Made by a program: the position numbers and the translations under genes
From: Dethiobacter sp.
GTDB lineage: Bacteria > Bacillota > Dethiobacteria > Dethiobacterales > Dethiobacteraceae
NCBI GenBank assembly: GCA_020725465.1
Contig: DYEY01000073.1
Location: forward strand, 1 to 64,000
Direction: 5' to 3'
DNA length: 64,000 nt
Shown: positions 15,145 to 49,668 of the stretch, piece by piece
Numbering within the stretch: the stretch's first letter is position 1
Layout of the letters: the number at the start of each line of letters is the position of its first letter
The notes under the pieces: generated by a model
The model's input: only the letters and a program-made list of their open reading frames with translations
Told to the model about the DNA's origin: nothing
Databases searched by the model: none

Positions 15145-15690
15145 TTATGACCGTGCCATCCTTTTGCCCTCCGGTTCACCGCAGGCGCGGGCCAGGGTAC
15201 GGCGGGCAAAGACCACAGCCAGGCCGGTGAAGAAGCCGGTGGGAACAGCCAGAAGCAGTAATAGCGGCAGGTAGAGCTTCATCAGGTTTATGTTTCTGAT
15301 CAGGATGGCGGCGGCGGACACCTGGGCGGTATTGTGGAATACCGCGCCAAGGATGCTCACCACCACCAGGGACAGCATGTCGCGGCGCCAGAGGGCGATC
15401 CCCAGCGCCATAGCCAGGGTGGAAACCACGCCGCCGCTGAAGCTTAAGATGAAGCCAAATCCGGGAAAGGTGCCGGTAAACATGCCGCCCAGGACGGTGC
15501 GTACTATGGTGACCAGCATGGCGGACCTGAAGCCATAGAGGACAAAGGCCAGCAGTGTTATGGCGTTGGCCAGCCCCAATTTGGCGCCCGGCACCTGGAT
15601 GGGCAGCGGGATGGAAGCTTCCACTGTATGGACGACCAGGGCGAAAGTTGCCAGTACAGCCAGGCGGGTCAGTTTCCGGGCGCCCGTCAT
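15145..15690 (-). CDS. Gx transporter family membrane protein (PF07456)
   Basis: A 181-residue membrane protein with about five hydrophobic segments, including PGAKLGLANAITLLAFVLYG and GGMFTGTFPGFGFILSFSGG. It matches the small ECF-S-like family once named heptaprenyl diphosphate synthase component I and now Gx transporter. Members lie beside ApbE genes in flavinylation-linked clusters, and here the start overlaps the apbE stop by 4 bp. The substrate is unknown to me; a flavin-related or quinone-related cargo is inference. Confidence 0.85.
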   Translation of the reverse strand: MTGARKLTRLAVLATFALVVHTVEASIPLPIQVPGAKLGLANAITLLAFVLYGFRSAMLVTIVRTVLGGMFTGTFPGFGFILSFSGGVVSTLAMALGIALWRRDMLSLVVVSILGAVFHNTAQVSAAAILIRNINLMKLYLPLLLLLAVPTGFFTGLAVVFARRTLARACGEPEGKRMARS

Positions 15691-16703
15691 GAGAGAATCG
15701 TCACCTTCCCCTCCAGGCCGGATGAGACGTGCACTTTGCCGTCTTCGCTTACAATTATGGCCTCTATGTCCTCCATTGATTCAATCAGGTCCATGGCCGC
15801 CTCCAGGCCAAGGACAAAGCCGGCGGTGGAAAGGGCGTCCGCGGTAAAAGCGTCCGGCGCCACAACGGTGACGCTGGCCAGCCCTTTGGCCGGGTACCCG
15901 GTAGAAGGGTCGATAATATGGTGGTAGCGTACATCGCCGGCGACAAAGAAGCGCTCGTAATCGCCGGAGGTGACGATGGCGCAGTCAGTCAGTTCAATCA
16001 CGGCGATTACATCCCGCCGGTTACGCGGGTGGCGCACTCCGATCCGCCAGGGAGAACCGTCCGGCTTGGTGCCGATAACCCTGATATCGCCTCCGGCGTC
16101 CAGGTAAGCGGATGTTACCCCCTGCGCCAGCAGGATTTCCGCCGCCCTGTCCACGATATAGCCCTTGGCGATGCCGCCGAGGTCAATCTCGCTGCCTTTT
16201 GTTTCAAGAAACACCGTCCCGGCCGTCTCATTTACCATAACCTTTTGGAAATCCACCAGCCTGAGCGCTTTGGCCAGCTCTTCGGCAGACGGGACTTTTT
16301 CCCCGTCTGTGCCAAAACCCCACAGCGACAGCACGGGCGCCACGGTGATATCAAAGGCTCCTCCGGTCTGTGCTCCCGCCTGCAGTGATTTTCTGACCAC
16401 ATCAAGTGTTTCCCCTGCAACGGCAACCGGTGCTTCCCCGGCCGCCCGGTTTATTTTGGCAACATCGGAAGTGTCAAGGTGCCGGTCCAGCAGGGCTTCC
16501 AGGCGTTCCATCTCATTAAATGCCAGGCGCAGGGCTTCCTCTCCTACCTGCCTGTCCCTGCTGAAAACCACAATGTTTACGATTGTATCCATAAGAAACT
16601 CGGTGCGGGCAAGCTTTTTTTCCCCGGGAACCCTGGCTGTCCGCACTGTCAGTCCCAGCAGCAACAACACGGCAAGTCCGTATAGTATGACGTTTTTTTT
16701 CAC
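15687..16703 (-). CDS. apbE: FAD:protein FMN transferase (ApbE)
   Basis: A 338-residue enzyme that cuts FAD and attaches FMN covalently to Ser/Thr of target proteins on the outer face of the membrane. An N-terminal membrane anchor (about 4-21) without a lipobox cysteine is followed by TEFLMDTIVNI, the flavin-binding ETKGSEIDLGGIAKGYIVDR, the DAGGDIRVIG loop and the Mg2+ region HHIIDPSTGYPA and DALSTAGFVLG. RnfG and RnfD, 11-13 kb away on the same strand, carry flavinylation motifs and are the obvious substrates. Confidence 0.93.
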   Translation of the reverse strand: MKKNVILYGLAVLLLLGLTVRTARVPGEKKLARTEFLMDTIVNIVVFSRDRQVGEEALRLAFNEMERLEALLDRHLDTSDVAKINRAAGEAPVAVAGETLDVVRKSLQAGAQTGGAFDITVAPVLSLWGFGTDGEKVPSAEELAKALRLVDFQKVMVNETAGTVFLETKGSEIDLGGIAKGYIVDRAAEILLAQGVTSAYLDAGGDIRVIGTKPDGSPWRIGVRHPRNRRDVIAVIELTDCAIVTSGDYERFFVAGDVRYHHIIDPSTGYPAKGLASVTVVAPDAFTADALSTAGFVLGLEAAMDLIESMEDIEAIIVSEDGKVHVSSGLEGKVTILS

Positions 16704-16806: not shown

Positions 16807-18834
16807 TTAAATGTTTCTGGTGTAATAAATAAGGATAAAGAGGAACAGGCCAAGCATCAGAGCCATAAGGAAGGAGTCGAAGTTAAGGTTCTTGATGTTC
16901 CAGTCGGTGGGGCGTCCCCGCAACCGGTCCCAAAGGCTGCGGGAATGGGAACCGGACTTTTCGTACATACCATCCAGGGCACCGTCCAGCTCGGCCGCCT
17001 TTCCCGCCAGCTTTTTGGCCACATCCCCTGACTTTTCATAGGCGTTATCCAGGGCGTCGTCAAACTCGGCCGCCTTGCCCGCCAGCTTTTTGGCCAGCTC
17101 GCCGGATTTCCCGTAAGCATCATCCAGGGCGCTGTCAAACTGTTCAGCCCGCTCTGCCAGCCGGCGCGCCATCCCGCCCGATTTTTCATAAGCATCATTC
17201 AGGGCGCCGTCAAACCTCTGTGTAAAGGAAACAAGAATGCTGCCTGACTTACCTGACATCTCGTAAATATGGTCGAGATCACGGTCCAGTTTGCTCACAA
17301 TGCGGCAACATCTGAACACGGTGCGGTATATCGGCCCGTAGAAGAGGTACTCCATGCTCATCCAGGCAGGCGGTTTGATGCCTCTTTCCAGCACCTTGTT
17401 AAGGGCGAAAAAAGCCACCAGTCCCATGCCGAGGAACTGAAGAGCTGTTATTATACCTGCCGGGTTATAAACTGTCAGCTTAGAATGGTAGGGAAGAATA
17501 TTTTTTACCAGGTATGGATATACGCCCAAAACAATACAGGAGGCGGATGCCAGTATAATGGCGGCTTTCATAGTAAAAGTGATGTCCCGTTTAATATGGG
17601 CGCGGCCTTTGATAAAGCCGAAATAGCAGAACTTGCAGAATGACACCACGGTGCCCACGCTGGCAAACATCAGCATCTTCTCAGCCGGCCCGGCGCCATA
17701 CATAGCTTTCTTTAAAAGGTACTTGCTCACGTAGCCGTTAAAGGGAGGAACCCCGGAGATGGCCAGGGCTCCTATCAGCGCGCCCAGCGCGGCAATGGGT
17801 AGTCCTCTCCAGACCGGAGGAACGTGCCGGTCCTCACCGTGATGGCCCAGGTCGTGCAGGTTTTCCGTTCCCGCCGCCAGCAGGACCGACCCTGCGCTCA
17901 TAAACAAAAGAGCTTTATACAGCATGTGGTTAACCACATGAAGCATACTGCCGTCAATGCCGTAGTAGCCTGCCACCCCGGCACCAGCCACCATATAGCC
18001 CACTTGGCTGATAATGTGGTAAGAAAGGAGACGTCTCATATCTTTTTGCAAAAGCGCACAGCAGATGCCAAAAACCGCCATGGAGGCGCCCATCAGAGCA
18101 ATGGCCGGGTGAGGTGGCAGAATTCTGGCCACTGCATAGACACCGATTTTGGTGGTTAACCCAGCCAGCACCACACTGGTAGGGAAAGAGGCGGTGGGAT
18201 AACCCCATGCTACCCAGACGTGGAGGGGCAGGAAAGCGGCCTTGAAGCCGATGGCCAAGGCAAAGAAAATCAACCCCGCTGCCGGTTTTTCCACAACAAA
18301 AGAACCTGTTGCCGCGTAGTGCTGTAGTATGCCCAAAAACAGCAAAAGTCCGCCCGCAACATGGAATATCATAAACCTGTAACCCATGTTAATGGCGTGC
18401 GGTGTCTGCTTTAACAGGATCAGTATGGCAACGGAGAATGTTAATACTTCCCAGAAGAAAAAAAGTGAAACGAAGTTGGCGGAGAAACCGATCCCCACGG
18501 CACTGGCCACAGCGACCAGAGAAACGGCCTGTTCTCTGGGGTCAGCAACCTGTAACCCGTAAAGCAGTGCAATTGCTCCCACAAACAAAAAGCCGAATAC
18601 TGCCATTCTGGCATAGGGATGAGCCGTAAAGGAAAGCGGAGCAAGGCCTATCTCCGCCAGGGACTTTAACACTGTAAAGTCCCTTAGTTCGGCGCCGGAA
18701 AGATTATAGAAGGCCAGCAGCACCATGAAGCAAAGCATCAAAACAAGCACATTTCGCCGCAGCTTTTCCGATACTTTGGGCAAAAACGGGGCAATGACAA
18801 AACAACCCAAGATGAAAAACAGGTAAAGTTCGAT
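16807..18834 (-). CDS. large proton/Na+ antiporter subunit (NuoL/MrpA-N-like) with 25-residue C-terminal repeats
   Basis: About 675 residues. The first 480 or so are an antiporter-like domain with roughly 14 hydrophobic segments; FFFWEVLTFSVAIL holds the conserved TM5 Glu and FLPLHVWVAWGYPTASFP the TM7-TM8 signature. After the last core helix comes a hydrophilic region with five 25-residue repeats (consensus D-x-ALDxAYEKSGxxAKKLAGKAAEF) and then one terminal hydrophobic helix (FLMALMLGLFLFILIYY). This recalls the lateral helix plus final TM of NuoL. It replaces the N-terminal part of MrpA. No ATG/GTG is possible: the frame opens after TGA 18841-18843. ATC 18832-18834 has AAGGCGGTGA 6 nt upstream and begins the hydrophobic IELYLFFI; a TTG at 18810 lacks a ribosome-binding site. 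Confidence 0.85.
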   Translation of the reverse strand: MELYLFFILGCFVIAPFLPKVSEKLRRNVLVLMLCFMVLLAFYNLSGAELRDFTVLKSLAEIGLAPLSFTAHPYARMAVFGFLFVGAIALLYGLQVADPREQAVSLVAVASAVGIGFSANFVSLFFFWEVLTFSVAILILLKQTPHAINMGYRFMIFHVAGGLLLFLGILQHYAATGSFVVEKPAAGLIFFALAIGFKAAFLPLHVWVAWGYPTASFPTSVVLAGLTTKIGVYAVARILPPHPAIALMGASMAVFGICCALLQKDMRRLLSYHIISQVGYMVAGAGVAGYYGIDGSMLHVVNHMLYKALLFMSAGSVLLAAGTENLHDLGHHGEDRHVPPVWRGLPIAALGALIGALAISGVPPFNGYVSKYLLKKAMYGAGPAEKMLMFASVGTVVSFCKFCYFGFIKGRAHIKRDITFTMKAAIILASASCIVLGVYPYLVKNILPYHSKLTVYNPAGIITALQFLGMGLVAFFALNKVLERGIKPPAWMSMEYLFYGPIYRTVFRCCRIVSKLDRDLDHIYEMSGKSGSILVSFTQRFDGALNDAYEKSGGMARRLAERAEQFDSALDDAYGKSGELAKKLAGKAAEFDDALDNAYEKSGDVAKKLAGKAAELDGALDGMYEKSGSHSRSLWDRLRGRPTDWNIKNLNFDSFLMALMLGLFLFILIYYTRNI
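16930..17303 (-). repeat. tandem 75 bp coding repeats (five 25-residue units)
   Basis: The region encodes five in-frame units beginning DRDLDHIY, DGALNDAY, DSALDDAY, DDALDNAY and DGALDGMY. Units three and four are nearly identical, the outer ones degenerate. The pattern is helical and charged (Lys/Arg and Asp/Glu faces) with an invariant YxKSG or YEMSG turn. Confidence 0.85.
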
Positions 18835-18876: not shown

Positions 18877-20361
18877 CTAAAAGCCACCCCGCAACAGAAA
18901 GTCGGCGGCTACCCTGGAAAGATCAAAGGGCAGGTTGGTGGGCAGGAGACCGAACAGCAGGCAGCTAACAGCCAGTATGGCAATGGGTATAAGCATCTTG
19001 TAGGGTGCTTCGTTAACTTTTATAGGTTCATGTTCATGACCGTGTTCGGCGCCAAAGAAAGCGGCAATGATGATGGGCAGGTAATAAAGGCCGTTTAAAA
19101 GGCTGCTGACCAGCAGAATTATTACATAGAAGGGTACGCCGGCGTCCATGGCGCCCAGCGCCAGTGTCCACTTGCTGAGGAACCCGTTAAAGGGGGGAAT
19201 GCCGATCATAGCCAGGGCCGCCAGGGTGAAGGCGAACATGGTGAAGGGCATCTGGCGGCCTATGCCGCCCAGGTCTTTGATATTACGCTTGCCGGTTTTT
19301 AAGATGATGGCGCCGGCCGCAAGGAAGAGCGTGCTCTTCATAAACGCGTGGCTGAAGATGTGAAAGATATTGCCGATCAGGGCGCGCTCGGTCAGGATGG
19401 CCATGCCAAGCAGGATGTAACCCATCTGGCCGATGCTGGAATAGGCCAGGCGCCTCTTTAGGTCTTCCTGGGTAATGGCCACGGCGGAACCGAGCAAAAT
19501 GGTTATCACTGCTATTACCGCCAGAATCAGCGTCCAGCCAGATTCACGCATCAGTTCAATGCCGAACACGTGAAAGATGACACGAAGCAGTCCGTAAGCG
19601 CCGGTCTTTAGCATGATTCCGGAAAGCAGGGCGCTGGCGGGCGAGGGGGCGACCGGGTGAGCGTCAGGCAGCCAGACGTGCAGGGGGAACATGCCGGCTT
19701 TCATGCCAAAACCAATCAGGAAGGAAATGAAGGCAAAAAATCCCAGCGCGGTCGGTTCGCCAAAAAGGGTTGGGCCGCTCAGGGAAACGGTGCCCGCCAC
19801 CTCGAAGGTGATTATGATGCCAAAGAAAAGAGCCAGGCCGCCGATAATTGTCATTATCAGGTATTTATAGCCGGCCTTCAGGGCATCCACCGTCTCCTCG
19901 TGCACCACCAGCACGTAGGAAATCAGGGACATGGCCTCAAAGAACACAAAGAGCGTGAACAGGTCCCCGGCCATAAAAATCCCCATGCAACTGGCCAGTG
20001 TAATGATCAGCACAGGATAATAGCGGTTGCAGCCGTGTTCTTTGCACATGTAATCAACGGAATAGACAGCCACCAGCATCCAGACGAAAGAAGACAAGAC
20101 AGCCAGTGAAAAACTCAGTATGTCAACGCGAAACGAAATCTCCAGGTTGGGCAGAAGCTGAAACATCCGGTATTCAATGATATTTCCGGCCACTATCTCC
20201 GGGTACAGCGCCACCACTGACAGGAATGTTACCACCGCGGTGGCGACTGACAGGGCATTGCGCATTTTCTCCGAGTGCTGCTCCACGTAATATATGACAA
20301 AGGTCATCAACATCGGGAACATCACCACCCAGACCGGAAGAAAGGACGTTTTCACTTCCAC
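18877..20361 (-). CDS. mrpD: Mrp-type antiporter subunit D (second of two)
   Basis: A 494-residue polytopic protein of the proton-conducting transporter family with about 14 hydrophobic segments. FVFFEAMSLISYVLVVHEET carries the TM5 Glu and MFPLHVWLPDAHPVAPSPAS the classical NuoM/MrpD signature. It works as an ion-translocating subunit in the membrane. It is one of three antiporter-like subunits in the operon, 28 bp after its paralogue. Confidence 0.88.
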   Translation of the reverse strand: MEVKTSFLPVWVVMFPMLMTFVIYYVEQHSEKMRNALSVATAVVTFLSVVALYPEIVAGNIIEYRMFQLLPNLEISFRVDILSFSLAVLSSFVWMLVAVYSVDYMCKEHGCNRYYPVLIITLASCMGIFMAGDLFTLFVFFEAMSLISYVLVVHEETVDALKAGYKYLIMTIIGGLALFFGIIITFEVAGTVSLSGPTLFGEPTALGFFAFISFLIGFGMKAGMFPLHVWLPDAHPVAPSPASALLSGIMLKTGAYGLLRVIFHVFGIELMRESGWTLILAVIAVITILLGSAVAITQEDLKRRLAYSSIGQMGYILLGMAILTERALIGNIFHIFSHAFMKSTLFLAAGAIILKTGKRNIKDLGGIGRQMPFTMFAFTLAALAMIGIPPFNGFLSKWTLALGAMDAGVPFYVIILLVSSLLNGLYYLPIIIAAFFGAEHGHEHEPIKVNEAPYKMLIPIAILAVSCLLFGLLPTNLPFDLSRVAADFLLRGGF

Positions 20362-20388: not shown

Positions 20389-21876
20389 TTAAAGCCCCAG
20401 CAAAAGCCGGGTTGCCCGGGAGACGAGGCCAAGGACCAGCGAGGGGAATATGCCAAAAATAATACAACCCGCACCCAGCACCACCAGGGTGCCTGTCATC
20501 ACGGCAGGCAGACGACCGGGTTTGGCCACAGCCCCCTCCGGCTTGCTGAAGAAAGCATTGACAATGATGGGAAGGTAATAGATGCCGTTAAGCAGGCTGC
20601 TGACCAAGACCACCGCGGCAAACAAAGGTTTGCCGGCATCCAGGGCGCCCAGGGCCAGATACCACTTGGACCAGAAGCCGTTGGTGACGGGAATGCCCAC
20701 CATGGCCATGGCGCCTATGGCAAAGGCGCCGGCGGGCACCGGCATGGTAACGCCGATGCCTTTCAGCTGGCTCAGCTTGCGCACCCCGGTGGCGTAGATA
20801 AACGCCCCTGCCGCCAGAAAGAGCATCGCCTTCATCATGGCATGGTTAAAAATATGAAGTATCCCGCCCAGCAGAGCGTTATGGCTGGCCAGGCCCACTC
20901 CGAGGAAAACGTAGCCAATCTGGGCAATACTGGAATAAGCCAGCATCTTCTTGATGTCTTCCTGTACAATGGCAAACATGGACCCGATGATGATAGCCAG
21001 TGTGGACATCCAGAGCAGCATGGCCATCACCGGTGCCATGCCCGCGAAGGTGGCCGGAAAAACTTTGTAAAGAAGCTTGATCATGGCCACAGCATAGATT
21101 TTAATCACCAGGCCGGAAAGCACCGCTGACGAAGGGGAAGGTGCCGAGGAGTGGGCGTCCGGCAGCCACACGTGCAGCGGGAAAAGCGCCGCCTTAACCC
21201 CAAGGCCTACCATCAGGAGCGCCAGTGCCGCCAGGATGTTTTTGGGGTAGACGGCCATTACCCCAGGCAGTGTCGCAGCCAGGAAGGTAAAGTTCAGGTG
21301 GCCCGTTACCATGTAAATCAGGGCGATGGCGAGGAGCAGGCACCCGGAGCCGACAGCCGACAGCACCAGGTATTTAAAAGCCGCCTCAACGCATTCCCTG
21401 CTCTCCTTAATAGAAATGATGGCACAGGAAGCGATGGCGCATATTTCAACAAAAACAAACAGGTTGAACAGGTCGTTGGTCAGCGCCATGCCCAGCATGG
21501 AGGCCATCAGCAGCAGGTAGAGGGTATAGTACCAGCCCAAAACTCCCTCTTTCAGTTCATGCGGCAGGTCTTTGATGCCGTAGACAATAACCGGCAGGCC
21601 GATACCCGAGATGGTTAAGGCGGTAAAAACAGCCAGGTAATCCACATAAAATTCAATACCCCAGGGAGGAGCCCATCCCCCCATGTGGTAGACAAAAGGA
21701 CCGCTGCTCATCACCCTGTTTGCCAGGTACAGGGAAGAAAAGAAGGTAAACGCCAGCACAGCCAGCGTGGTGGCAGCACACCAGCTTTTGCGCCAGCGGG
21801 CGAGAAGGGGCATGAGGTAGGCAAAAAAGAGGGGGACCACCACGGTGAGGGCGGGCAAATGGGCAGCTGCGCTCAC
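20389..21876 (-). CDS. mrpD: Mrp-type antiporter subunit D (first of two)
   Basis: A 495-residue paralogue of the following gene, with the same fold: NLFVFVEICAIASCAIISIK (TM5 Glu) and LFPLHVWLPDAHSSAPSPSS. Its start overlaps the mrpC stop by 4 bp. Two MrpD-like subunits plus the large repeat subunit give three antiporter modules instead of the two in a standard Mrp complex, reminiscent of hydrogenase- or complex-I-linked Mrp modules. Confidence 0.88.
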   Translation of the reverse strand: MSAAAHLPALTVVVPLFFAYLMPLLARWRKSWCAATTLAVLAFTFFSSLYLANRVMSSGPFVYHMGGWAPPWGIEFYVDYLAVFTALTISGIGLPVIVYGIKDLPHELKEGVLGWYYTLYLLLMASMLGMALTNDLFNLFVFVEICAIASCAIISIKESRECVEAAFKYLVLSAVGSGCLLLAIALIYMVTGHLNFTFLAATLPGVMAVYPKNILAALALLMVGLGVKAALFPLHVWLPDAHSSAPSPSSAVLSGLVIKIYAVAMIKLLYKVFPATFAGMAPVMAMLLWMSTLAIIIGSMFAIVQEDIKKMLAYSSIAQIGYVFLGVGLASHNALLGGILHIFNHAMMKAMLFLAAGAFIYATGVRKLSQLKGIGVTMPVPAGAFAIGAMAMVGIPVTNGFWSKWYLALGALDAGKPLFAAVVLVSSLLNGIYYLPIIVNAFFSKPEGAVAKPGRLPAVMTGTLVVLGAGCIIFGIFPSLVLGLVSRATRLLLGL

Positions 21877-22250
21877 AGCGTTTCACCCCCCCGGAGGCGC
21901 ATAATTTCTTCGGCATCAATAGTGCCGTAGTGCCGGTAAAGCTTTACCACCAGGCTGAGCGCGTAGGCGGTGACACTTACCGCCACCACAATGCCTGTAA
22001 GTATCAGGGCCGAAGGCAGCGGGTTTATATAGGCATGGCCGGCGCCGGGTTCCAGTATGGGGGCACGGCCGCCACGGACATAGCCGATGGCCACAAAAAA
22101 GAGAAAAATAGAAGTATCCATGATGTTCATGCCGATAATTTTCTTTATCAGGTTGTTGTGGGTAAGCATGGTGTGAAACCCTATTATAAAAAGCACAATA
22201 GAAAAGAAATAATAGCTGTTTTGGTGGAGCCGGAGCAGCGTGTCAGTCAT
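21873..22250 (-). CDS. mrpC: Mrp antiporter subunit C (NuoK-like)
   Basis: A 125-residue protein with three hydrophobic segments; NLIKKIIGMNIMDTSIFLFF and NPLPSALILTGIVVAVSVTA are the family core. It overlaps mrpB by 8 bp. Confidence 0.88.
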   Translation of the reverse strand: MTDTLLRLHQNSYYFFSIVLFIIGFHTMLTHNNLIKKIIGMNIMDTSIFLFFVAIGYVRGGRAPILEPGAGHAYINPLPSALILTGIVVAVSVTAYALSLVVKLYRHYGTIDAEEIMRLRGGETL

Positions 22251-22680
22251 GGCTGTGCCCCTCCCCCTCTATCAGGCTGTAAAAAAGTGTAATCATGGTA
22301 CTGGCCACCTTGATGCCAACCCCAAAGGTAATAACCATAATGGCACCGCCGGAAAAAAGGTTGCCCGGTATACCAAGGGGAAACCCAGCCGCCCTGTTGC
22401 CAAGAAAATTGGTGCCAAGCAGTACCGCCAGCAGGCCCATGCCGGCAAAAATCAGCGCGCCGCCGCTCTCCAGTACCGAAGAAACATCGTGGGAAAGCTT
22501 TTTGGTACCGGCGGACAGGTTGAAGGAAAGAGCGTAAAGGATCATGCTGGCGGCAAAAATGGCGCCGCCGGAGAAACCGCCGCCCGGGGACAGGTGTCCG
22601 TGCAAAATAACGTACAATCCGTAGAGCTGGACAAACGGCACAATAATACGGCTGATATAGCGGACGATGATGTCTTCCAA
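22243..22680 (-). CDS. mrpB: Mrp antiporter subunit B (MnhB domain)
   Basis: A 145-residue membrane protein. The MnhB signature LYVILHGHLSPGGGFSGGAI is clear. Four hydrophobic segments. It follows the MbhE-like gene after 22 bp. Confidence 0.9.
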   Translation of the reverse strand: MEDIIVRYISRIIVPFVQLYGLYVILHGHLSPGGGFSGGAIFAASMILYALSFNLSAGTKKLSHDVSSVLESGGALIFAGMGLLAVLLGTNFLGNRAAGFPLGIPGNLFSGGAIMVITFGVGIKVASTMITLFYSLIEGEGHSHD

Positions 22681-22702: not shown

Positions 22703-22972
22703 CTAGTGAGCCTTCAGGGTGGAAAGGGCGGCGGCTATGGCCACAAAAAGCACCGTAGCCTCCCCCAAAGTATCAAAAGCACGGTAGTCGGTGATTATGG
22801 CGGCAATAACATTAAGCACCCCGGTTTCCCGGATGGTCTCCTGCACATAACGCTCCGGCACTTCGTTATTGGTGGGGTTGGCCGGGTCGCCAAAAGTGGG
22901 CATTTCCAGCACCGTGGTCACCATGGCAAAAGTGATGACGGCCAGCAGCACAATAACCAGCAGTTTTCGCAT
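22703..22972 (-). CDS. MbhE-like subunit (C-terminal MrpA piece, PF20501 type)
   Basis: An 89-residue membrane protein. VLNVIAAIITDYRAFDTLGE matches the segment that in one-piece MrpA links to the MrpB region, and in membrane-bound hydrogenases forms subunit MbhE. With the preceding 79-residue gene it shows that MrpA is split in this organism. No hydrogenase catalytic gene is in the window. Confidence 0.82.
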   Translation of the reverse strand: MRKLLVIVLLAVITFAMVTTVLEMPTFGDPANPTNNEVPERYVQETIRETGVLNVIAAIITDYRAFDTLGEATVLFVAIAAALSTLKAH

Positions 22973-23211
22973 TACTCCTGCCTCCTCGTCTTACTTATGG
23001 CGGCCACCAGGAGCAACGTGGTGACGCCGGCTCCCAGTGCCGCTTCGGTAATGGCGATGTCAGGGGCGGCCAAAAGCTGCCAAAGCACGGCCATAATCAG
23101 GCTGTAGGCTGCAAAGATGATGACCGCGGCCAAAAGGTCCCGGGTGCGGGCTACCGCCACGGCACAGGCCACCAGGAAGAGCAGCAACAGGTACTGTAAA
23201 ATATAGTTCAC
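22972..23211 (-). CDS. MbhD/DUF4040-like subunit (middle MrpA piece)
   Basis: A 79-residue membrane protein with three hydrophobic segments. LLAAPDIAITEAALGAGVTT is the DUF4040 core. It overlaps both neighbours by a few bases (ATG/stop overlaps), so translation of the block is coupled. Confidence 0.82.
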   Translation of the reverse strand: MNYILQYLLLLFLVACAVAVARTRDLLAAVIIFAAYSLIMAVLWQLLAAPDIAITEAALGAGVTTLLLVAAISKTRRQE

Positions 23212-23540
23212 TGCCTGCCGCCCCCTTCCGTCCTGTCCAGGCTGAAGGACCCCTCACAGAACGGCACGTCGTTGCTGCGGTAAGCCGCGCGGGCAATAAC
23301 ATGGGCCGCGGTGGGGTTGGTCAGCCAGATAAAAACGATTAGTAAAAGAAGCTTGAAGCCGGCAGGGGTAAAGCCGGCATACAGCATTAAGGCGAACAGG
23401 ATAAGCCCGGCACCCAGCGTGTCACACTTGGTGGTGGCGTGCATGCGGGAATAGGCGTCAGGAAGCCGGAGCAGCCCGATTACGCCGATCAGGAAAAAGA
23501 AGATGCCGGCGGCAAGTACAGGTATTACCAGAACGGCCAT
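23208..23540 (-). CDS. mrpG: Mrp antiporter subunit G
   Basis: A 110-residue membrane protein with the MnhG signature LLRLPDAYSRMHATTKCDTL and NPTAAHVIARAAYRS. It overlaps the MbhD-like gene by 4 bp and follows mrpF after 10 bp. Confidence 0.92.
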   Translation of the reverse strand: MAVLVIPVLAAGIFFFLIGVIGLLRLPDAYSRMHATTKCDTLGAGLILFALMLYAGFTPAGFKLLLLIVFIWLTNPTAAHVIARAAYRSNDVPFCEGSFSLDRTEGGGRQ

Positions 23541-23550
23541 GATTTCCTCC

Positions 23551-23835
23551 TCACTCCAGAGCGCCTTTCTCCATGTATTTGGCTACACCGATGGTGGCCA
23601 CAAAACTGATAAGCGCGTAAACCAGCGCCACGTCCAGAAAAAACTCCTGGTGAAAGACCAGCGAAACCAGGGCGATTATAACCACGGTCTTGGTGCCGAT
23701 AACATTGATGGAAACCACCCGGTCGGAAGCGGTAGGCCCTGCCGCCGCCCTGAACAGGCAGAGAAAAGTTGCCATGGTAAGAACAACGGCGGTAGCAATC
23801 AGGATTTTATCAAGCACTTTTTTCGGCCTCCTCAA
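23551..23835 (-). CDS. mrpF: Mrp antiporter subunit F
   Basis: A 94-residue, three-helix membrane protein with the MnhF element AAGPTASDRVVSINVIGTKT. Its start overlaps the mrpE end by 26 bp. Confidence 0.9.
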   Translation of the reverse strand: MRRPKKVLDKILIATAVVLTMATFLCLFRAAAGPTASDRVVSINVIGTKTVVIIALVSLVFHQEFFLDVALVYALISFVATIGVAKYMEKGALE

Positions 23836-24316
23836 TTTGCCAAAGCCGCTCCGCCATATCCCAGGCCGCTACGTCTTCGGCGTTGGCCGTGGTGATGCAA
23901 TGAACGATGTAATGGTCTTCTTCAACTTCCACGGTGAGGGTCCCCGGTGTCAGCGTGATGGAGTTGCCCAGAATAACACGGTTCAAAGGCTTTTGCACCC
24001 TGGCGTTAAACCTGACAAAGCAGGGGGAGATGCCCATATCACGGCGCAGTACTAACCTGGCCACGTCCCAATTGGCCCTGAAGATAGCTGCGATGAGGCG
24101 GAACACGTAATCCAGCCAGCGGCCCAGAGTCACGCCAAAGAAAAGCGGCCTTTCTTCCCGGGACAGCAGCAGATCACGGTTAAAAACCGCCACGCCGAAT
24201 GAACAAAGCAACCCCACCAGCAGGTGCTGCCAGTTCAGCTTCCAGGTAATCAGGAGCCAGAAGACGAAAAGGGTGCCAAAGGTCGCCCGGAATGTATTGT
24301 CGGACTTTTTTTTCAT
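23810..24316 (-). CDS. mrpE: Mrp antiporter subunit E
   Basis: A 168-residue protein: two hydrophobic segments at the N-terminus, then a soluble MnhE domain with [20 protein letters not shown] and [20 protein letters not shown]. The start overlaps the moaC stop in an ATGA, placing moaC at the head of this operon. Confidence 0.9.
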
Positions 24317-24801
24317 TCACCTTCGCCCTTTCTTTGGTAACGACCCGACTTGCCGCCGGTTTTTTCCACCAGGCGGATATGGCCGATTACCATTTCCCTG
24401 TCTATGGCTTTGCACATGTCATAGACTGTGAGCGCCGCCATTGTTACGGCGGTGAGCGCTTCCATCTCCACACCGGTTTTCCCGGTGGTGCTGACCCTGG
24501 CTTCTATTTCCAGAACATTCCGTCTATCATCCGGGGAAAAACTTAAGTCTACGCTGTCCAGGAAGAGAGGGTGGCACATGGGGACCAGCTGCCAGGTCTG
24601 TTTGGCCGCCATTATGCCGGCGACCTGGGCTACGGCCAACACGTCTCCCTTGGCTACTGACCCTGCCTTAATCCTGGCCATTGTTTCAGCCGCCATGGCG
24701 ACCTCGCCCCGGGCCACAGCCACGCGAAGCGACTCCTTCTTGCCGGAAACATCAACCATCCTGGCACGGCCCTCGGTATTGATATGAGTAAGTTTATCCA
24801 C
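24313..24801 (-). CDS. moaC: cyclic pyranopterin monophosphate synthase MoaC
   Basis: A 162-residue molybdenum-cofactor enzyme that with MoaA converts GTP to cyclic pyranopterin monophosphate. [18 protein letters not shown] opens the protein, with LVPMCHPL (substrate His), [14 protein letters not shown] and DMCKAID (catalytic Lys) all intact. I chose GTG 24801, matching family N-termini, with GATGGGG 11 nt upstream; a frame extending to 24966 runs through the promoter and terminator and is rejected. Other moa genes are absent. It is directly coupled to mrpE, an unusual position for a cofactor gene. Confidence 0.92.
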
Positions 24802-24844
24802 CAGCCATTCAACCCCATCAAAAAAACTTATAAGCAACAGAAAC

Positions 24845-24873
24845 AGTGTACACCTGCCCGTTTGTTTTGTCAA
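24845..24873 (-). promoter_or_regulatory. sigmaA-type promoter of the moaC-mrp operon
   Basis: TTGACA, a 17 bp spacer and TACACT on the minus strand, between the rnf terminator and moaC. The leader is about 40 nt. Confidence 0.7.
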
Positions 24874-24888
24874 CAACGTTGCACCAGG

Positions 24889-24928
24889 AAAGAAGCGGTA
24901 CGGAAGTCCCCTTCCGCACCGCTTCTTT
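24889..24928 (-). terminator. long hairpin closing the rnf operon
   Basis: An 18 bp stem with one mismatch (AAAGAAGCGGT...ACCGCTTCTTT) and a 4 nt loop immediately after the rnfB stop. The T-run is short on the minus strand and long on the plus strand, so it could act in both directions. Confidence 0.75.
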
Positions 24929-24929
24929 T

Positions 24930-25709
24930 TTACACTATGGTATCCCGCGGGCAGACCTCCACGCATTTGCCACAGTTGTTACATATAAAACTGTCGATGA
25001 TGGCCAGGTTGTTCTCCAGGCGGATGGCTTTCTGCGGGCAGTTCTTGACGCAGATGCCGCACCCGATGCAACCACGCTCGCACACCTCTCGCACCTGCTT
25101 CCCTTTGTCCGTTGATTTACAGCGAACGTAGTGGAAGGTCCTGGCATTTATCATGTCGATGACCTGCTTGGGGCAGGAGTTCCTGCACTTGGCACAGCCG
25201 GTACACTTGTCGGCATCTATTATGGGCAGCCCTTTTTCGCTCATGGTAATGGCGTCAAAGGGGCAGACCCGCGCACAGGTGCCAAGGCCAAGACAGCCGA
25301 AGCGGCAGGCTTTGCTGCCGCCGCTGTACATCATGGCGGCCTTGCAGTCAGGTACACCGTGATAAATGAATTTGTCTTTGGCCACGCTGCAGTCGCCCAG
25401 GCAGACCAGCTGGGCCACCAGGCGGGCTTCCGTTTCCGGTGCCACCTGGCCGAGGATCTCCGCGATCCTGGCCGCTGTTTTGGCTCCGCCAGGCGTACAG
25501 CCACCCAGGGGAGCATTTCCGGCCACCACTTCTTCGGCAAACTTACTGCAGCCGGCATAACCGCAAGCGCCGCAGTTGGCTCCCAGGAGCGCCTCCTGTA
25601 CCATCTCCACCCGGGGATCCACTTCCACGGCGAACTTCTGCGAAGCAAACGCCAGTATGCCGCCAAAAAGAAGTCCCAGACCCCCCAGGCTGATAATAGC
25701 AATCAGCAT
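24930..25709 (-). CDS. rnfB: Rnf complex subunit B, multi-cluster ferredoxin
   Basis: A 259-residue iron-sulfur protein. Residues 1-25 form a membrane anchor; then the 4Fe-4S domain ([20 protein letters not shown] and GGCTPGG) and several CxxCxxCxxxCP motifs: [39 protein letters not shown] and [13 protein letters not shown]. This is the long clostridial RnfB that takes electrons from reduced ferredoxin. It is the last gene of rnfCDGEAB, as in acetogens. Confidence 0.95.
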
Positions 25710-25728: not shown

Positions 25729-26304
25729 TCACATCATGCCCTGGAAGCCCATGAAGGCTATGGACAGGATGCCGGCAATAATCAGGGACAGTGCTACGCC
25801 GCGGAAATGCCTGGAGATAAAAGCCAGTTCCAGCCGCTCGCGGATACCGGCCAAGATGACCAGGGCCAGGGTGAACCCGGCCGCGGCGGCGACAGCAAAA
25901 ACAAGGGCCTCAAACAGGTTGTAGCCAATCTGGATATTCAGGATAGCCACGCCCAGCACCGCACAGTTGGTGGTAATCAGGGGCAGAAAGATACCCAGCG
26001 CCTCATAAAGCGCCGGTGCCACCTTACGCATGACGATCTCCACAAACTGCACCAGCGCGGCGATAACCAAGATAAAGACGATGGTCCGCAGGTACTGCAG
26101 GTTGTTCGGCACCAGCACGAACCACTCCAGAAGCCAGGTCACCAGCGACGCCATGGTCATGACAAAGGTTACGGCCATACCCATCCCGATGGATGTCTCC
26201 ACTTTCTTTGACACACCGAAATAGGGGCACAGTCCAAGGAAACGTGAAAGCACGAAGTTATTGATAAATATGGCGCCAAAGATAATAACAATTATATTCC
26301 CCAT
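25729..26304 (-). CDS. rnfA: Rnf complex subunit A
   Basis: A 191-residue, six-helix membrane protein (RnfA/NqrE family). NNFVLSRFLGLCPYFGVSKK and TNCAVLGVAIL contain the cysteines that bind the membrane iron-sulfur centre together with RnfE. 19 bp before rnfB. Confidence 0.95.
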   Translation of the reverse strand: MGNIIVIIFGAIFINNFVLSRFLGLCPYFGVSKKVETSIGMGMAVTFVMTMASLVTWLLEWFVLVPNNLQYLRTIVFILVIAALVQFVEIVMRKVAPALYEALGIFLPLITTNCAVLGVAILNIQIGYNLFEALVFAVAAAAGFTLALVILAGIRERLELAFISRHFRGVALSLIIAGILSIAFMGFQGMM

Positions 26305-26318
26305 GGTCCGATCCTCCT

Positions 26319-26918
26319 TTACTCCAGCCGGAATTTCCTGGACAGCATGTTGAACAGGGCCAACATCAGGCCAAGGGCAATAAACGCGCCGGGCGGGAAG
26401 CCAAACACCTGGAAGGGCTGGTAACCGGAACCCAGGATGTTGGCGTGGAATATGGTTCCTTTGGAAAGAAGCTCCCTTACCGCGCCAAGGGTGGTCAGCG
26501 CCAAGGTAAAGCCAAGCCCGATGCCTATCCCGTCCGCAGCGGAATTGAGGACCGGGTTCCTGGAGGCAAAGGCTTCGGCGCGACCCAGAATGACACAGTT
26601 CACCACAATCAGGGGCACAAAGATGCCAAGCTGGGCGTGCAGAGCCGGCAGGAAGGCATTAAGGAGCATATCCACCATGGTGACAAAGGTGGCAATAATC
26701 ACTATAAAACAGGGAATGCGGATTTTATTCGGGATAACGTTTCTCAGCGCCGCCACCACCAGGTTGGAACATACCAGCACCGCCGTGGCAGAAAGGCCCA
26801 TACCCAGGCCGTTTTCAGCCGTTCCCGTAACAGCCAGGGTGGGACATAAGCCCAGCACCAGCCGGAAGACGGCGTTGTCCCTGATAATGCCCCTGGATAA
26901 ATCCTTCATTACACTCAT
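26319..26918 (-). CDS. rnfE: Rnf complex subunit E
   Basis: A 199-residue membrane protein homologous to RnfA in inverted topology. NAVFRLVLGLCPTLAVTGTA and VNCVILGRAEAFAS carry the conserved cysteines. It lies between rnfG and rnfA with short gaps. Confidence 0.95.
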   Translation of the reverse strand: MSVMKDLSRGIIRDNAVFRLVLGLCPTLAVTGTAENGLGMGLSATAVLVCSNLVVAALRNVIPNKIRIPCFIVIIATFVTMVDMLLNAFLPALHAQLGIFVPLIVVNCVILGRAEAFASRNPVLNSAADGIGIGLGFTLALTTLGAVRELLSKGTIFHANILGSGYQPFQVFGFPPGAFIALGLMLALFNMLSRKFRLE

Positions 26919-26936
26919 TGATATTTCACCTCCCGG

Positions 26937-27758
26937 CTACTTCGCCAGCGCGTTTAACACGGCCTGCATAATGCCTTTACTGCTGCCGGTTGCCCCGCTG
27001 GCTGCATCGACTTCCACTGACTGTTTATTGATAATACGCGGGATGACTTCTTCTTCCGCCATTTTGAAGAAATTGGCTGTATCGTTGTGTTCAAGAACCT
27101 TTATCTCGGTAATTTTTCCGCCCACAATGGTTACTTCCACCTTGATATCGGACTTGAAACCGTCGGCGGTCCCGGTGTACTTCCCGTCTTTCAGGGCGGA
27201 GGGATTGAAGGTGGGTTGCTTGGGCGCCTCAGCCCCCATAAAGCGTACCAGGATCTCCGCCAGGGCTTTCTTCACACCGGAAGCCATGGCGCGGGTAGAG
27301 ACAGTGGCTCCAGCCAGAATGTCAATATCCTGCCCCGCGGTAATGGGGTCTTTCCCGGTTTTGCCGACAAACTGGCTGAGGAAAGCGGGTTCTTTTATCT
27401 TGTCGCCCAGGCCCGGTGTTTCGCTCTGGCTCAGGATGTTTACACCCACGATTTTACCGCTGCCGTCAACAGCCAGTGTAAAGCGGATAGTGCCGGCGTA
27501 GCCCTCAGTACGGGCCTCAGCAAGAAGTCCCACCATTTTGCCGGCGCCGTCCAAGCCGATGGTGGCGGTCATGCCGTCCACCGTTTTATCTTCCAGGGTT
27601 GCCACATCGGGGAAGAGCTTTTGCATCTGGGCAATCTTTTCCTTTTCTTCCCTGTCGGCGATAATGGCAGAGGTAATGCCGTTGACATAGGACAGTGACC
27701 CGGCGGCTACGGCACAGATAAGCATCAGAATCAAGCCAAGTCTTGCAATTTCTTTCAT
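26937..27758 (-). CDS. rnfG: Rnf complex subunit G with two FMN-binding domains
   Basis: A 273-residue flavoprotein, longer than the usual 180-210. One N-terminal membrane anchor (about 8-28) leads to an FMN-binding domain with DILAGAT, where T152 fits the flavinylated residue of the Dxx(s/t)gAT motif. A linker (about 175-188) is followed by a second FMN-binding domain (DGKYTGTADGFKSDIKVEV...) ending with DAASGAT, T257. ApbE, also in the window, should attach FMN to both. The family passes electrons across the membrane between RnfB/RnfC and RnfD. The stop of rnfD and the start here overlap by one base. Confidence 0.93.
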   Translation of the reverse strand: MKEIARLGLILMLICAVAAGSLSYVNGITSAIIADREEKEKIAQMQKLFPDVATLEDKTVDGMTATIGLDGAGKMVGLLAEARTEGYAGTIRFTLAVDGSGKIVGVNILSQSETPGLGDKIKEPAFLSQFVGKTGKDPITAGQDIDILAGATVSTRAMASGVKKALAEILVRFMGAEAPKQPTFNPSALKDGKYTGTADGFKSDIKVEVTIVGGKITEIKVLEHNDTANFFKMAEEEVIPRIINKQSVEVDAASGATGSSKGIMQAVLNALAK

Positions 27759-28690
27759 TATTTGGTCACCTCCCCGAACTTCCTGGGCAGGGTCGCCCTG
27801 TCTATGAGCGGGGTAACAGCGTTCATCAGCAGGATGGCGAAAGTTACCCCTTCCGGGTACATACCGTACAGCCGGACCAGCATGGTAATGATGCCGCAGC
27901 CGATGCCGAATATCAGCTTGCCCCGCGGAGTTACCGGGGAACTTACCCAGTCGGTAGCCATATAAAGGGCTCCCAGCATCACACCGCCGGCCAGTACGTG
28001 GAACAGGCCCACCGAAACCATGGTGGCCAGGCTACCCATACCGCCGAAGAACATACCCATCAGGAAGACCACCCCGATATAGCCTCCGGGGATGCGCCAG
28101 CAGATGTGGCCCTTATAAAAGAGCCAGGCGGCGCCCAGCAGCAGGGCAAAGGCACTGGTTTCACCGATGCAGCCGGGGACGGTGCCAATGAAAAGGCTTA
28201 AAAAACTGGTGGATACTCCCCTGGCCGCCAGGGGAAGTGGGGTAGCGGTACTGACCAGGTCTACGGGGCTTAACCACCCGGTCATGTGACCGGCCCAGGA
28301 GACCATCAGGATGGCCCGGGCCACCAGCGCCGGGTTGAAGATATTGTTGCCGATACCGCCGAAGACCTGCTTGCCGATGACAATGGCCACCACGCCACCG
28401 ATTACGGTAAGCCACCAGGGCGGTGCGGGGGGCAGGGTCATGGCCAGGAGCAGGCCGGTAACAGCGGCACTGCCGTCACCAAAAATATTTTTCTGCCTGA
28501 GGATCACAGCCTCGGTGACCATGGCCGACACCATGCAGAGCACCATGGTCAAAAGGCCCATCCAGCCGAAAAAAACCACACCGGCTATGGCTGCCGGGAA
28601 TAAGGCCAGAAGCACGTCTGTCATTACGCTCTGTATCGACTCGGGGGTCTTAAGGTGCGGCGACGAAGAGACTACTAGTCTGGTTTCCAT
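27758..28690 (-). CDS. rnfD: Rnf complex subunit D
   Basis: A 310-residue membrane protein of the RnfD/NqrB family with about eight to ten hydrophobic segments. The flavinylation motif is DLVSTATPLPL with T150 as predicted FMN attachment site; FGGIGNNIFNPALVARAIL is the family core. Probably the ion-translocating core of the complex. Confidence 0.95.
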   Translation of the reverse strand: METRLVVSSSPHLKTPESIQSVMTDVLLALFPAAIAGVVFFGWMGLLTMVLCMVSAMVTEAVILRQKNIFGDGSAAVTGLLLAMTLPPAPPWWLTVIGGVVAIVIGKQVFGGIGNNIFNPALVARAILMVSWAGHMTGWLSPVDLVSTATPLPLAARGVSTSFLSLFIGTVPGCIGETSAFALLLGAAWLFYKGHICWRIPGGYIGVVFLMGMFFGGMGSLATMVSVGLFHVLAGGVMLGALYMATDWVSSPVTPRGKLIFGIGCGIITMLVRLYGMYPEGVTFAILLMNAVTPLIDRATLPRKFGEVTK

Positions 28691-28713: not shown

Positions 28714-30033
28714 TTACTTCCGGCGCCTCGCCGCGATGTCGCCCTTGGCCATCCGTATCCACTGCACCAGCGGGCGCTTGGCCGGGCAGATGTAAGTGCA
28801 GCAGCCGCACTCAATACAGTCCATGGCGTTAAATTCTTCCGCCTTGTCGTACATGCCGTGCTCCACGGAGCCGCCGATAAAGAGCGGCATTATGCTTACC
28901 GGACAGACATCCACGCATTTGGCACATTTGACGCAGGGCCTGATTTCGTCCAGTTCCACCTCGGCGTCGGTAAGGCAAAGGATGCCGGAGGTGCCCTTGA
29001 TTACCGGCAGGTCTGGTCCGGGTTGGGCCAGGCCCATCATGGGGCCGCCCAGGATCAACTTGCGGATATTCGGCCTGAAACCGCCGCACTGTTCCACCAC
29101 TTCGGTAATCATGGTGCCAACACGCACCAGCATATTTTTCGGCTCCATGATACCGGAGCCGGTAATTGTTACAATTCGCTCAATCAGGGGTTTGCCAAAA
29201 CGGACTGCGTCGGAGATGGCAATACAGGTCCCGACGTTCTGGACCACGCAACCAACATCCATGGGCAGGCCGCCGGAAGGGACCTCCCGGCCGGTGCAGA
29301 CCTTGATGAGCTGCTTTTCCGCTCCCTGCGGGTACTTGGTGTGCAGGGTGGCCACCACAATACTGCTGTCCCCCGCCACCGCTTTGGTCATGGCCAGAAT
29401 GGCGTCGGGCTTGTTGTCCTCGATGCCGATAAACCCCCTGGGAGCATTAACGGCTTTCATTACCAGCCGAAGACCGGTGACGATATCTTCCGGTCTTTCC
29501 AGCATGGCACGGTGGTCCGCAGTGAGGTAGGGCTCGCACTCTGCCGCGTTCACCAAAACGTATTCGATCTTTTTTTCCGGAGGCGGTGACAGCTTGACGT
29601 GGGTGGGGAAAGTGGCGCCCCCCATACCCACAATACCGGCTTCACGGATAATCTTTTTGATTTCTTCGGCAGTCAGCTTCTCATAGTCCGGCCTGGGCTG
29701 CACATCCCCGTGCCAGGTGTCCTGACCGTCAGACTCAATGTAGACGGCCTGGACGGGGCGGCCGAGCGGATGATTACAGGAGTCAATTTTTACTACCTTG
29801 CCGGAGACACTGGAATGGACGGGGGCCGATACGAATCCCTTGCTGTCGCCGATCTTCTGTCCCATCTTAACCTCATCACCTGCGGCAACCAGCGGTTCAC
29901 AGGGTGCACCTATGTGCTGCGCCATGGGAATAACCACCAGCGACGGCGGCCGGGCGGGCACGGTAGGCTTTCCCTCGGTAGCACTTTTAAAGTACCCGGG
30001 ATGTATGCCCCCCTTAAACGTTTTGAAACTCAT
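28714..30033 (-). CDS. rnfC: Rnf complex subunit C, NADH-interacting subunit
   Basis: A 439-residue peripheral protein. The N-terminal barrel-sandwich region starts KTFKGGIHPGYFK; GMGGATFPTHVKL marks the flavin/NADH-binding part shared with NuoF; two 4Fe-4S motifs, CVKCAKCVDVCPVSIMP and CIECGCCTYICPAKRPL, lie near the C-terminus. It is the first gene of the rnf operon and exchanges electrons with NAD+/NADH. Confidence 0.95.
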   Translation of the reverse strand: MSFKTFKGGIHPGYFKSATEGKPTVPARPPSLVVIPMAQHIGAPCEPLVAAGDEVKMGQKIGDSKGFVSAPVHSSVSGKVVKIDSCNHPLGRPVQAVYIESDGQDTWHGDVQPRPDYEKLTAEEIKKIIREAGIVGMGGATFPTHVKLSPPPEKKIEYVLVNAAECEPYLTADHRAMLERPEDIVTGLRLVMKAVNAPRGFIGIEDNKPDAILAMTKAVAGDSSIVVATLHTKYPQGAEKQLIKVCTGREVPSGGLPMDVGCVVQNVGTCIAISDAVRFGKPLIERIVTITGSGIMEPKNMLVRVGTMITEVVEQCGGFRPNIRKLILGGPMMGLAQPGPDLPVIKGTSGILCLTDAEVELDEIRPCVKCAKCVDVCPVSIMPLFIGGSVEHGMYDKAEEFNAMDCIECGCCTYICPAKRPLVQWIRMAKGDIAARRRK

Positions 30034-48875: not shown

Positions 48876-49059
48876 GTGCGTGTCAATTCGTGTTATCGTT
48901 CTATGATATTGTCACCTTGAAAGAAGTCTGAGAAAATGTCACCTATGAGCAAGGTGATGGTAACATTGTCGCAGTCTGAATTGAAAAGAGTGTTTGTTCT
49001 TGTGTTATCGTGCGTGTTCAATTGTGCGTGTGCAATTGGCTTTGTTCATTGTGCTTGTG
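48876..49059. repeat. degenerate short repeats between rdgB and tRNA-Pro
   Basis: About 185 bp without a gene. On the minus strand an A/C-rich word recurs (CACAATGA, CACAAG, CACACGCACAAT, CACGCACG, CGATAACAC), and CGATAACAC and TTGA(A)CACGCACG occur twice in swapped order. An imperfect hairpin has TCACCT and AGGTGA around TGCTCAT (48939-48957), and AGGTGACA is repeated at 48915-48922 and near 48937-48944. I do not recognise the element. Confidence 0.5.
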
Positions 49060-49668
49060 TCATTGTGCCAATTCCGTCAGCAGGCGCGCAAGAATTTTCC
49101 GCGCCTGCTCCATGGCCCGGGCGCGGTGACTGATGCTGTTTTTTTCAGCAGAAGTAAGTTCCGCAAAAGTTTTTTGCAGCTCGGGTACCAGGAAAAGCGG
49201 GTCATAGCCAAACCCTCCCTTACCCCTCGGTTCGGTGGTTATCAGCCCTTCGCAGGTACCTTCGGCCAGCTCAGTGGGTTTACCCGGCACGGCTACGGCA
49301 ATGCACGCCCGGAAGCGGGCTGTCCTTTTGGCTTTGGGCAACCCGTCCAGCTCAAAAAGAAGTTTTTGGTTATTTTCTTTGTCGCCGGCACCCGGTCCGG
49401 CAAAACGGGCGGACCAGACACCGGGGCGCCCGCCCAGCGCATCCACTTCCAGGCCCGAGTCGTCGGCCAGGGAAATCTCGCCGGTAAGCCTGGTGGTGGT
49501 TTCCGCTTTGATGCAGGCGTTTTCCGCAAAACTGCAGCCCGTTTCCTCAATTTCACCAATTTCGGGGTAATCGGCCAGGGACTTTACCTCCAGGGGAAGC
49601 CCGGCCAGGAGATCGCGGAACTCTTTTAGCTTACCGCTGTTTCTTGAGGCTATAACAAGTTTCTTCAT
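49060..49668 (-). CDS. rdgB: XTP/dITP diphosphatase (RdgB/HAM1)
   Basis: A 202-residue house-cleaning pyrophosphatase that removes dITP/XTP. N-terminal [46 protein letters not shown] (metal Asp) and [11 protein letters not shown] are all present, as are SHRARAM near the end. Its start overlaps rph by 4 bp; rph-rdgB linkage is common in Firmicutes. Confidence 0.95.

Follow-up and report, generated by a model that had tools for sequence, protein, structure and literature searches.

A repeat-lengthened lateral helix is predicted in an antiporter subunit of an Rnf-linked Mrp operon from Dethiobacter sp.

The last gene of an Mrp-type operon within the window (the whole stretch of Dethiobacter sp. 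DNA analysed here, 64,000 nucleotides) encodes an antiporter-like subunit, D3, whose C-terminal part contains five tandem units of 25 residues. On balance we favour the reading that this array is the lateral helix (HL) of the subunit lengthened by whole seven-turn units, that it is dedicated to Rnf-linked Mrp systems, and that it would act as a docking arm, most likely for Rnf. The antiporter subunit and its lateral helix belong to known types; what is new is the growth by repeat steps, the tail that moves between cores and the linkage to Rnf, and no description of these was found in the literature searched, in which subscription journals were thinly covered. The features of the region are listed in Table 1.

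Table 1. Genes and D3 tail features of the rnf-mrp-apbE region
Feature	Positions	Strand	Remarks
Heptaprenyl diphosphate synthase component I-like (Gx)	15145..15690	-	
apbE, flavin transferase	15687..16703	-	directly downstream of D3
D3, third antiporter-like subunit of the Mrp operon	16807..18810	-	667 aa; TTG start at 18810; frame open to 18840
Juxtamembrane motif GRPTDWNIKNLNFD and terminal helix TM16	16810..16917	-	TM16 predicted at residues 644-666
Repeat unit R4 (ELDGALDGMYEKSGSHSRSLWDRLR)	16918..16992	-	unit profile
Repeat unit R3 (EFDDALDNAYEKSGDVAKKLAGKAA)	16993..17067	-	unit profile
Repeat unit R2 (QFDSALDDAYGKSGELAKKLAGKAA)	17068..17142	-	unit profile
Repeat unit R1 (RFDGALNDAYEKSGGMARRLAERAE)	17143..17217	-	unit profile
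Repeat unit R0 (KLDRDLDHIYEMSGKSGSILVSFTQ)	17218..17292	-	unit profile
Lead segment (PPAWMSMEYLFYGPIYRTVFRCCRIVS)	17293..17376	-	TM15 into helix
Antiporter-like subunit D2	18877..20361	-	
Antiporter-like subunit D1	20389..21876	-	
MrpC	21873..22250	-	
MrpB	22243..22680	-	
MbhE-like	22703..22972	-	
MbhD	22972..23211	-	
MrpG	23208..23540	-	
MrpF	23551..23835	-	
MrpE	23810..24316	-	
MoaC-family gene	24313..24966	-	between rnfB and mrpE
rnfB	24930..25709	-	
rnfA	25729..26304	-	
rnfE	26322..26936	-	open frame; identity inferred from position and sequence
rnfG	26940..27764	-	open frame; BLAST relation to FMN-binding RnfG-like proteins
rnfD	27758..28690	-	
rnfC	28714..30033	-	

The first-pass annotation had placed a 75 bp tandem repeat at 16930-17303 within an antiporter subunit, and this is borne out in place and frame. 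The repeat profile defines five 25-residue (75-bp) units, R0-R4, at 16918-17292 on the minus strand, an offset of about 11 nt, and Tandem Repeats Finder reports a period of 75 in the tail DNA (16971-17215, score 229). R0 and most of R4 fall outside the latter span because they are too diverged for the program. Comparison of the tail with itself at a lag of 25 residues gives 51 identical positions, whereas in 2000 shuffles no lag gave more than 25. The most diverged unit is R0, with 7-9 of its 25 residues common to the other units, and the closest pair is R2 and R3, which are identical at 19/25 residues. Since even this pair differs at 9 of 25 third codon positions, the array is not an assembly duplicate, and the same kind of array is also present in single-contig genomes (G186, G324 and G022). 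The objection that the repeat might be artefactual fails on both counts, and the units are confirmed as real and old. A second short tandem array in the window, with five copies of a 14-bp unit at 49002-49068, is unrelated to the D3 repeats.

The assignment of the encoded protein to the antiporter subunits also held, with PF00361 (Proton_antipo_M) identified in the D3 core at an E-value of 4.4e-34. The best core family is NF009310/PRK12668, described as Na+/H+ antiporter subunit D (E 7e-117), but the 391.6 bits obtained lie below its cut-off of 564 and the match stops at residue 534, ahead of most of the repeats. TIGR00940 (MrpA) is absent from the best 25 NCBIfam matches of D3, and there is no MrpA-type fusion to a C-domain at this locus, where MbhD and MbhE are separate genes. 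In canonical Mrp systems, MbhD is part of the MrpA C-domain. Residues E121, K190 and K363 are invariant in 51 relatives of D3 and K221 is nearly so; AlphaFold2 places them in helices 5, 7, 12 and 8 respectively, and D3 has the pattern of a Glu in TM5 and a Lys in each of TM7, TM8 and TM12 that belongs to an HL-bearing antiporter-like subunit.

The AlphaFold2 model of D3, built from 51 sequences with a mean pLDDT of 83, predicts 15 TM helices with breaks in TM7 and TM12, the repeat-lengthened lateral helix as two long helices (residues 486-562 and 570-630), and finally TM16 (644-666). The predicted order of TM15, lateral helix and TM16 is absent from MrpD, NuoM and NuoN. Foldseek analysis of the model identified the MrpA chains 9a6h_A, 7qru_A and 6z16_A as top matches, and the earlier placement of the repeats at the lateral-helix site of NuoL and MrpA agrees with both results. 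The array does lie between the core and a terminal TM helix, as had been annotated, but not directly after the last core helix, as the additional helix TM15 comes first, like in NuoL and MrpA. Along the repeats pLDDT drops from about 80 to about 40, with most of the region at 39-62, and a model of the tail alone was poor (pLDDT 51.5) and was set aside; such values would suit a rod, a hairpin or a flexible chain alike. From its predicted helicity and topology, D3 appears to be an MrpA-N/NuoL-like end subunit of an Mrp-type antiporter.

The tail had a match in 65 of the 98 genomes of the class Dethiobacteria, and in a phylum-wide sample of 398 genomes a tail profile matched 34, 24 of these outside the class; the unit consensus and the 25-residue period are retained in distant families of the phylum. 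Every match in the class that is uncut by contig ends lies within an antiporter gene, and no repeat outside antiporters was found among these or in the window's own genome, which has a single tail match. Short open frames checked as candidate free-standing tail proteins (G002:C37, G025:C132, G031:C97) run into contig ends and were rejected. Searches with the tail against solved structures and viral folds gave no match, and no Pfam family scored above its cut-off.

Units in the relatives follow one another at exactly 25 residues in all 219 junctions, and in 51 of 54 tails the best self-match is at a lag of 25 or 50 and exceeds every shuffle. By the repeat profile, most tail proteins of the class contain 3-7 units. 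The number differs between species and even inside one genus (6, 6 and 7 units in g5), in line with the variation that had been suggested from the window alone, and adjacent units of one relative (L077) are identical at up to 70/75 positions in DNA, which indicates ongoing addition of units. The first unit follows the PPxWLS motif at a distance of 30 residues in nearly all relatives and of 29 in the window, and the linker after the last unit measures 4 to 50 residues. With the lead distance and spacing fixed and the linker variable, the tail, as far as the linker, gains or loses length only by entire units. In one family the arm varies by 75 residues while the linker is constant at 5 residues, so that nothing compensates for arm length. 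The hydrophobic profile of 256 units has its moment peak at 100-101 degrees per residue, corresponding to seven alpha-helix turns per 25-residue unit, and each unit therefore presents the same face. Charge is divided within the unit, positions 1-11 being acidic (-2.2) and positions 12-25 basic (+2.1). Judged from sequence, the repeats resemble a helix that keeps one face throughout. Conservation within the tail is highest in the TM16 segment.

The lateral helix of MrpA spans TMH15 to 16 and braces the complex (PMC7419157), and it is located at the cytoplasmic surface (PMC9568556). The lateral helix of E. coli NuoL tolerates several insertions, and 6-7 residues added at one site abolish most of the pumping (PMC3274701), which is consistent with the view that the helix can be lengthened provided that it and its contacts are preserved. 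Between comparable landmarks the HL measures 26 residues in MrpA (7 of 8 proteins, the lone value of 39 being due to the pattern catching an earlier tyrosine), 52 in NuoL (17/17) and 95-231 in the repeat-tail family, whose arm is 2-4 times the length of the NuoL HL. The HL segment of D3 comprises 155 residues and ends in WNIKNLNFD, not in the TG-x-L-x-x-Y that closes the MrpA and NuoL segments. The step of 26 residues from MrpA to NuoL is near the 25-residue unit of D3, and the pitch from one antiporter subunit to the next may be the reason for it. Between the unit and the single 'VDGxVNG...G..LR' stretch of the NuoL HL, homology was suggestive by eye but did not reach significance: PSSM scores were negative and the hhalign score lay within the range of column-shuffled controls.

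It had been proposed that the repeats form an arm clamping the other antiporter subunits, an enlarged NuoL-type HL whose units would run along D2 and D1 and brace them. The array does occupy the topological place of the HL, this helix is a brace in both Mrp and complex I (PMC7419157; PMC3274701), and the unit is close to the MrpA-to-NuoL step, but we consider such a clamp unlikely. The arm is far longer than the 52 residues that suffice for three antiporter subunits in NuoL, and unit number is independent of antiporter gene count, with five units at a locus with two antiporter genes (L206) and 4-7 at loci with three. An arm that is as long in a two-antiporter operon as in three-antiporter ones, together with a linker that offers no compensation, speaks against a simple clamp on D2 and D1, and this part of the first-pass annotation was not upheld. 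A ruler with one unit per antiporter subunit was rejected because unit number does not track the antiporter gene count.

Known systems share parts of this arrangement. The MrpA N-domain (MnhA, TIGR00940; 6z16, 7qru) has the Proton_antipo_M core, the TM15-HL-TM16 end and the same kind of operon with MrpB, C, D, E, F and G, but differs from D3 in its short HL, in the fusion of its C-domain, and in having neither repeats nor Rnf neighbours. NuoL/ND5/NdhF of complex I share the lateral helix between TM15 and TM16 and the presence of three antiporter-like subunits (D1, D2 and D3 in the window), but their HL is constant in length and free of the 25-residue repeat, and they belong to a quinone-reducing complex. 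The redox-linked Mrp systems (Mbh, Mbs and Fdh-Mrp-Mbh) also encode an Mrp-type module with a redox module, but the redox partner in the gene cluster of the window is Rnf, an unrelated pump.

Core and tail of D3 have different relationships. Between the window and genome G011, core segments are 29-35% identical, R1 64%, R4 80% and the last 36 residues (the TM16 segment) 97%; between the window and a tail-less paralogue (G003, C58), the core is 53-78% identical and the tail is unrelated. Relatives from the same family mostly encode another core kind at the same operon position, 30-34% identical to that of the window, followed by a similar tail. The core tree separates the two core kinds with full support, the tail tree sets the window's family apart from most other lineages with core kinds mixed, and the two trees conflict. 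When tail-less paralogues are included in the tree of the window's core kind, at least four changes of tail label fall on well supported branches. These comparisons show the tail to be, as far as can be read from alignments and trees, a module retained while the antiporter core was exchanged, and one apparently kept or regained on swapped cores. The gene apbE comes after the tail-bearing copies except where the contig ends or another antiporter gene intervenes (L113), and it adjoins no tail-less copy within flanks that reach only about 1 kb for many copies.

A second Mrp-like cluster is present in the same genome (G000:C28, L112:1-14258), and others were seen in G003:C58 (L224) and G009:C14 (L122). 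The G000:C28 cluster encodes seven antiporter-like subunits in one array, including a tail-less copy of the window's core type. At six loci (L095, L106, L108, L110, L118 and L120) an extra repeat-less MrpA-like subunit adjoins the repeat-tailed one; where measured, its HL is about 96 residues with an acidic insert, an arrangement that looks like a transfer of the repeats to the last gene.

Persistence of the tail under exchange of the core bears on the view that the 75-bp array merely expands by slippage in a tolerant cytoplasmic loop, as a spacer with no specific role. Differences in unit number between close relatives, the continuing addition of near-identical units in L077, the insertions tolerated by the NuoL helix (PMC3274701) and the poor AlphaFold2 confidence in the repeats would all be compatible with it. 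We nevertheless regard it as very improbable, as the 219 unit junctions contain no indel, yet the linker just behind them varies from 4 to 50 residues, and as the consensus and period persist in distant families and the tail on swapped cores.

The genes of Table 1 from rnfC to apbE follow the order rnfCDGEAB-moaC-mrp-apbE on one strand, the Mrp operon itself reading mrpE, F, G, mbhD, mbhE, mrpB, C, D1, D2, D3. The order rnf-moaC-mrp-apbE is repeated in distant families of the phylum, including loci with two antiporter genes only (L206-L208). Contig ends set aside, neighbouring Rnf, ApbE or RnfG-like genes occur at almost every repeat-tail locus, the exceptions being L079 and L085. None of 10 canonical MrpA loci had Rnf/ApbE neighbours, and neither did the tail-less clusters L112, L122, L219/L254, L220/L255, L222 and L224/L256. 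Repeat tails are thus nearly restricted to Rnf-linked Mrp operons. All of them may descend from one ancestral Rnf-linked operon, in which case the association would reflect shared history and gene order, not contact; the recurring exchange of cores is the more independent line of evidence for the association with Rnf.

In the docking reading that we favour, the HL of an MrpA-N/NuoL-like end subunit would have grown by whole 25-residue units into a straight or folded-back helical rod on the cytoplasmic side, whose acidic and basic unit halves might associate with each other, either within an antiparallel hairpin or from one copy to another. The arm would keep TM16 docked in the complex. The conservation of TM16 implies a fixed docking site, which would be compatible with a hairpin, with a rod that extends to a partner (Rnf, judging by gene context) and with complexes that pair with each other. 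A partner, most likely the Rnf complex encoded alongside, would dock on the surface of the arm, and the redox pump and the Na+/H+ antiporter would thereby be held together. In general terms, the D3 arm is probably a cytoplasmic docking or bracing arm.

The partner could instead be a second Mrp complex, the arms of the two pairing as antiparallel coiled coils that hold dimers or rows. Mrp complexes are dimers (PMC7419157), the acidic and basic unit halves favour charge matching in antiparallel or half-unit-shifted parallel arrangement, and a hydrophobic stripe extends along one side of the helix. Ordinary helix capping also produces such charge banding, however, and the conservation of TM16 would require another reason, and we judge self-association to be quite unlikely.

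Extended further, docking on Rnf would make Rnf and Mrp one physical assembly in many Bacillota, linked by the D3 arm and directly coupling ferredoxin oxidation to Na+/H+ exchange. The two sets of genes share one cluster that is conserved in distant families, and we know of no physical Rnf-Mrp complex; this putative assembly is offered tentatively and is rather doubtful. If it were real, the similarity of the 25-residue unit to the step between the MrpA and NuoL lateral helices would point to a shared structural pitch.

Whether the lateral helix of complex I and Mrp acts as piston, clamp or spacer has long been argued, and to our knowledge the question has so far been tested with small artificial insertions. 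The repeat-tail family provides a natural series in which the helix changes in 25-residue steps, ranging between one or two and seven units, and in which the core was exchanged while the helix stayed, making the question testable. Rnf and Mrp are pump classes usually discussed apart, and the conserved rnf-mrp-apbE cluster suggests a link between them. The Rnf/NQR review PMC12174285 makes no mention of Mrp.

A MoaC-family gene is also located between rnfB and mrpE at L072, L075-L078, L080, L089 and L206-L208, for no evident reason. In family f25 (L210, L212, L216 and L218), an FMN-binding RnfG-like gene lies upstream of the repeat-tail Mrp operon and is the only rnf-type gene in the stretch examined; a NusG_II-domain gene was confirmed downstream of the operon at L216 and L218.
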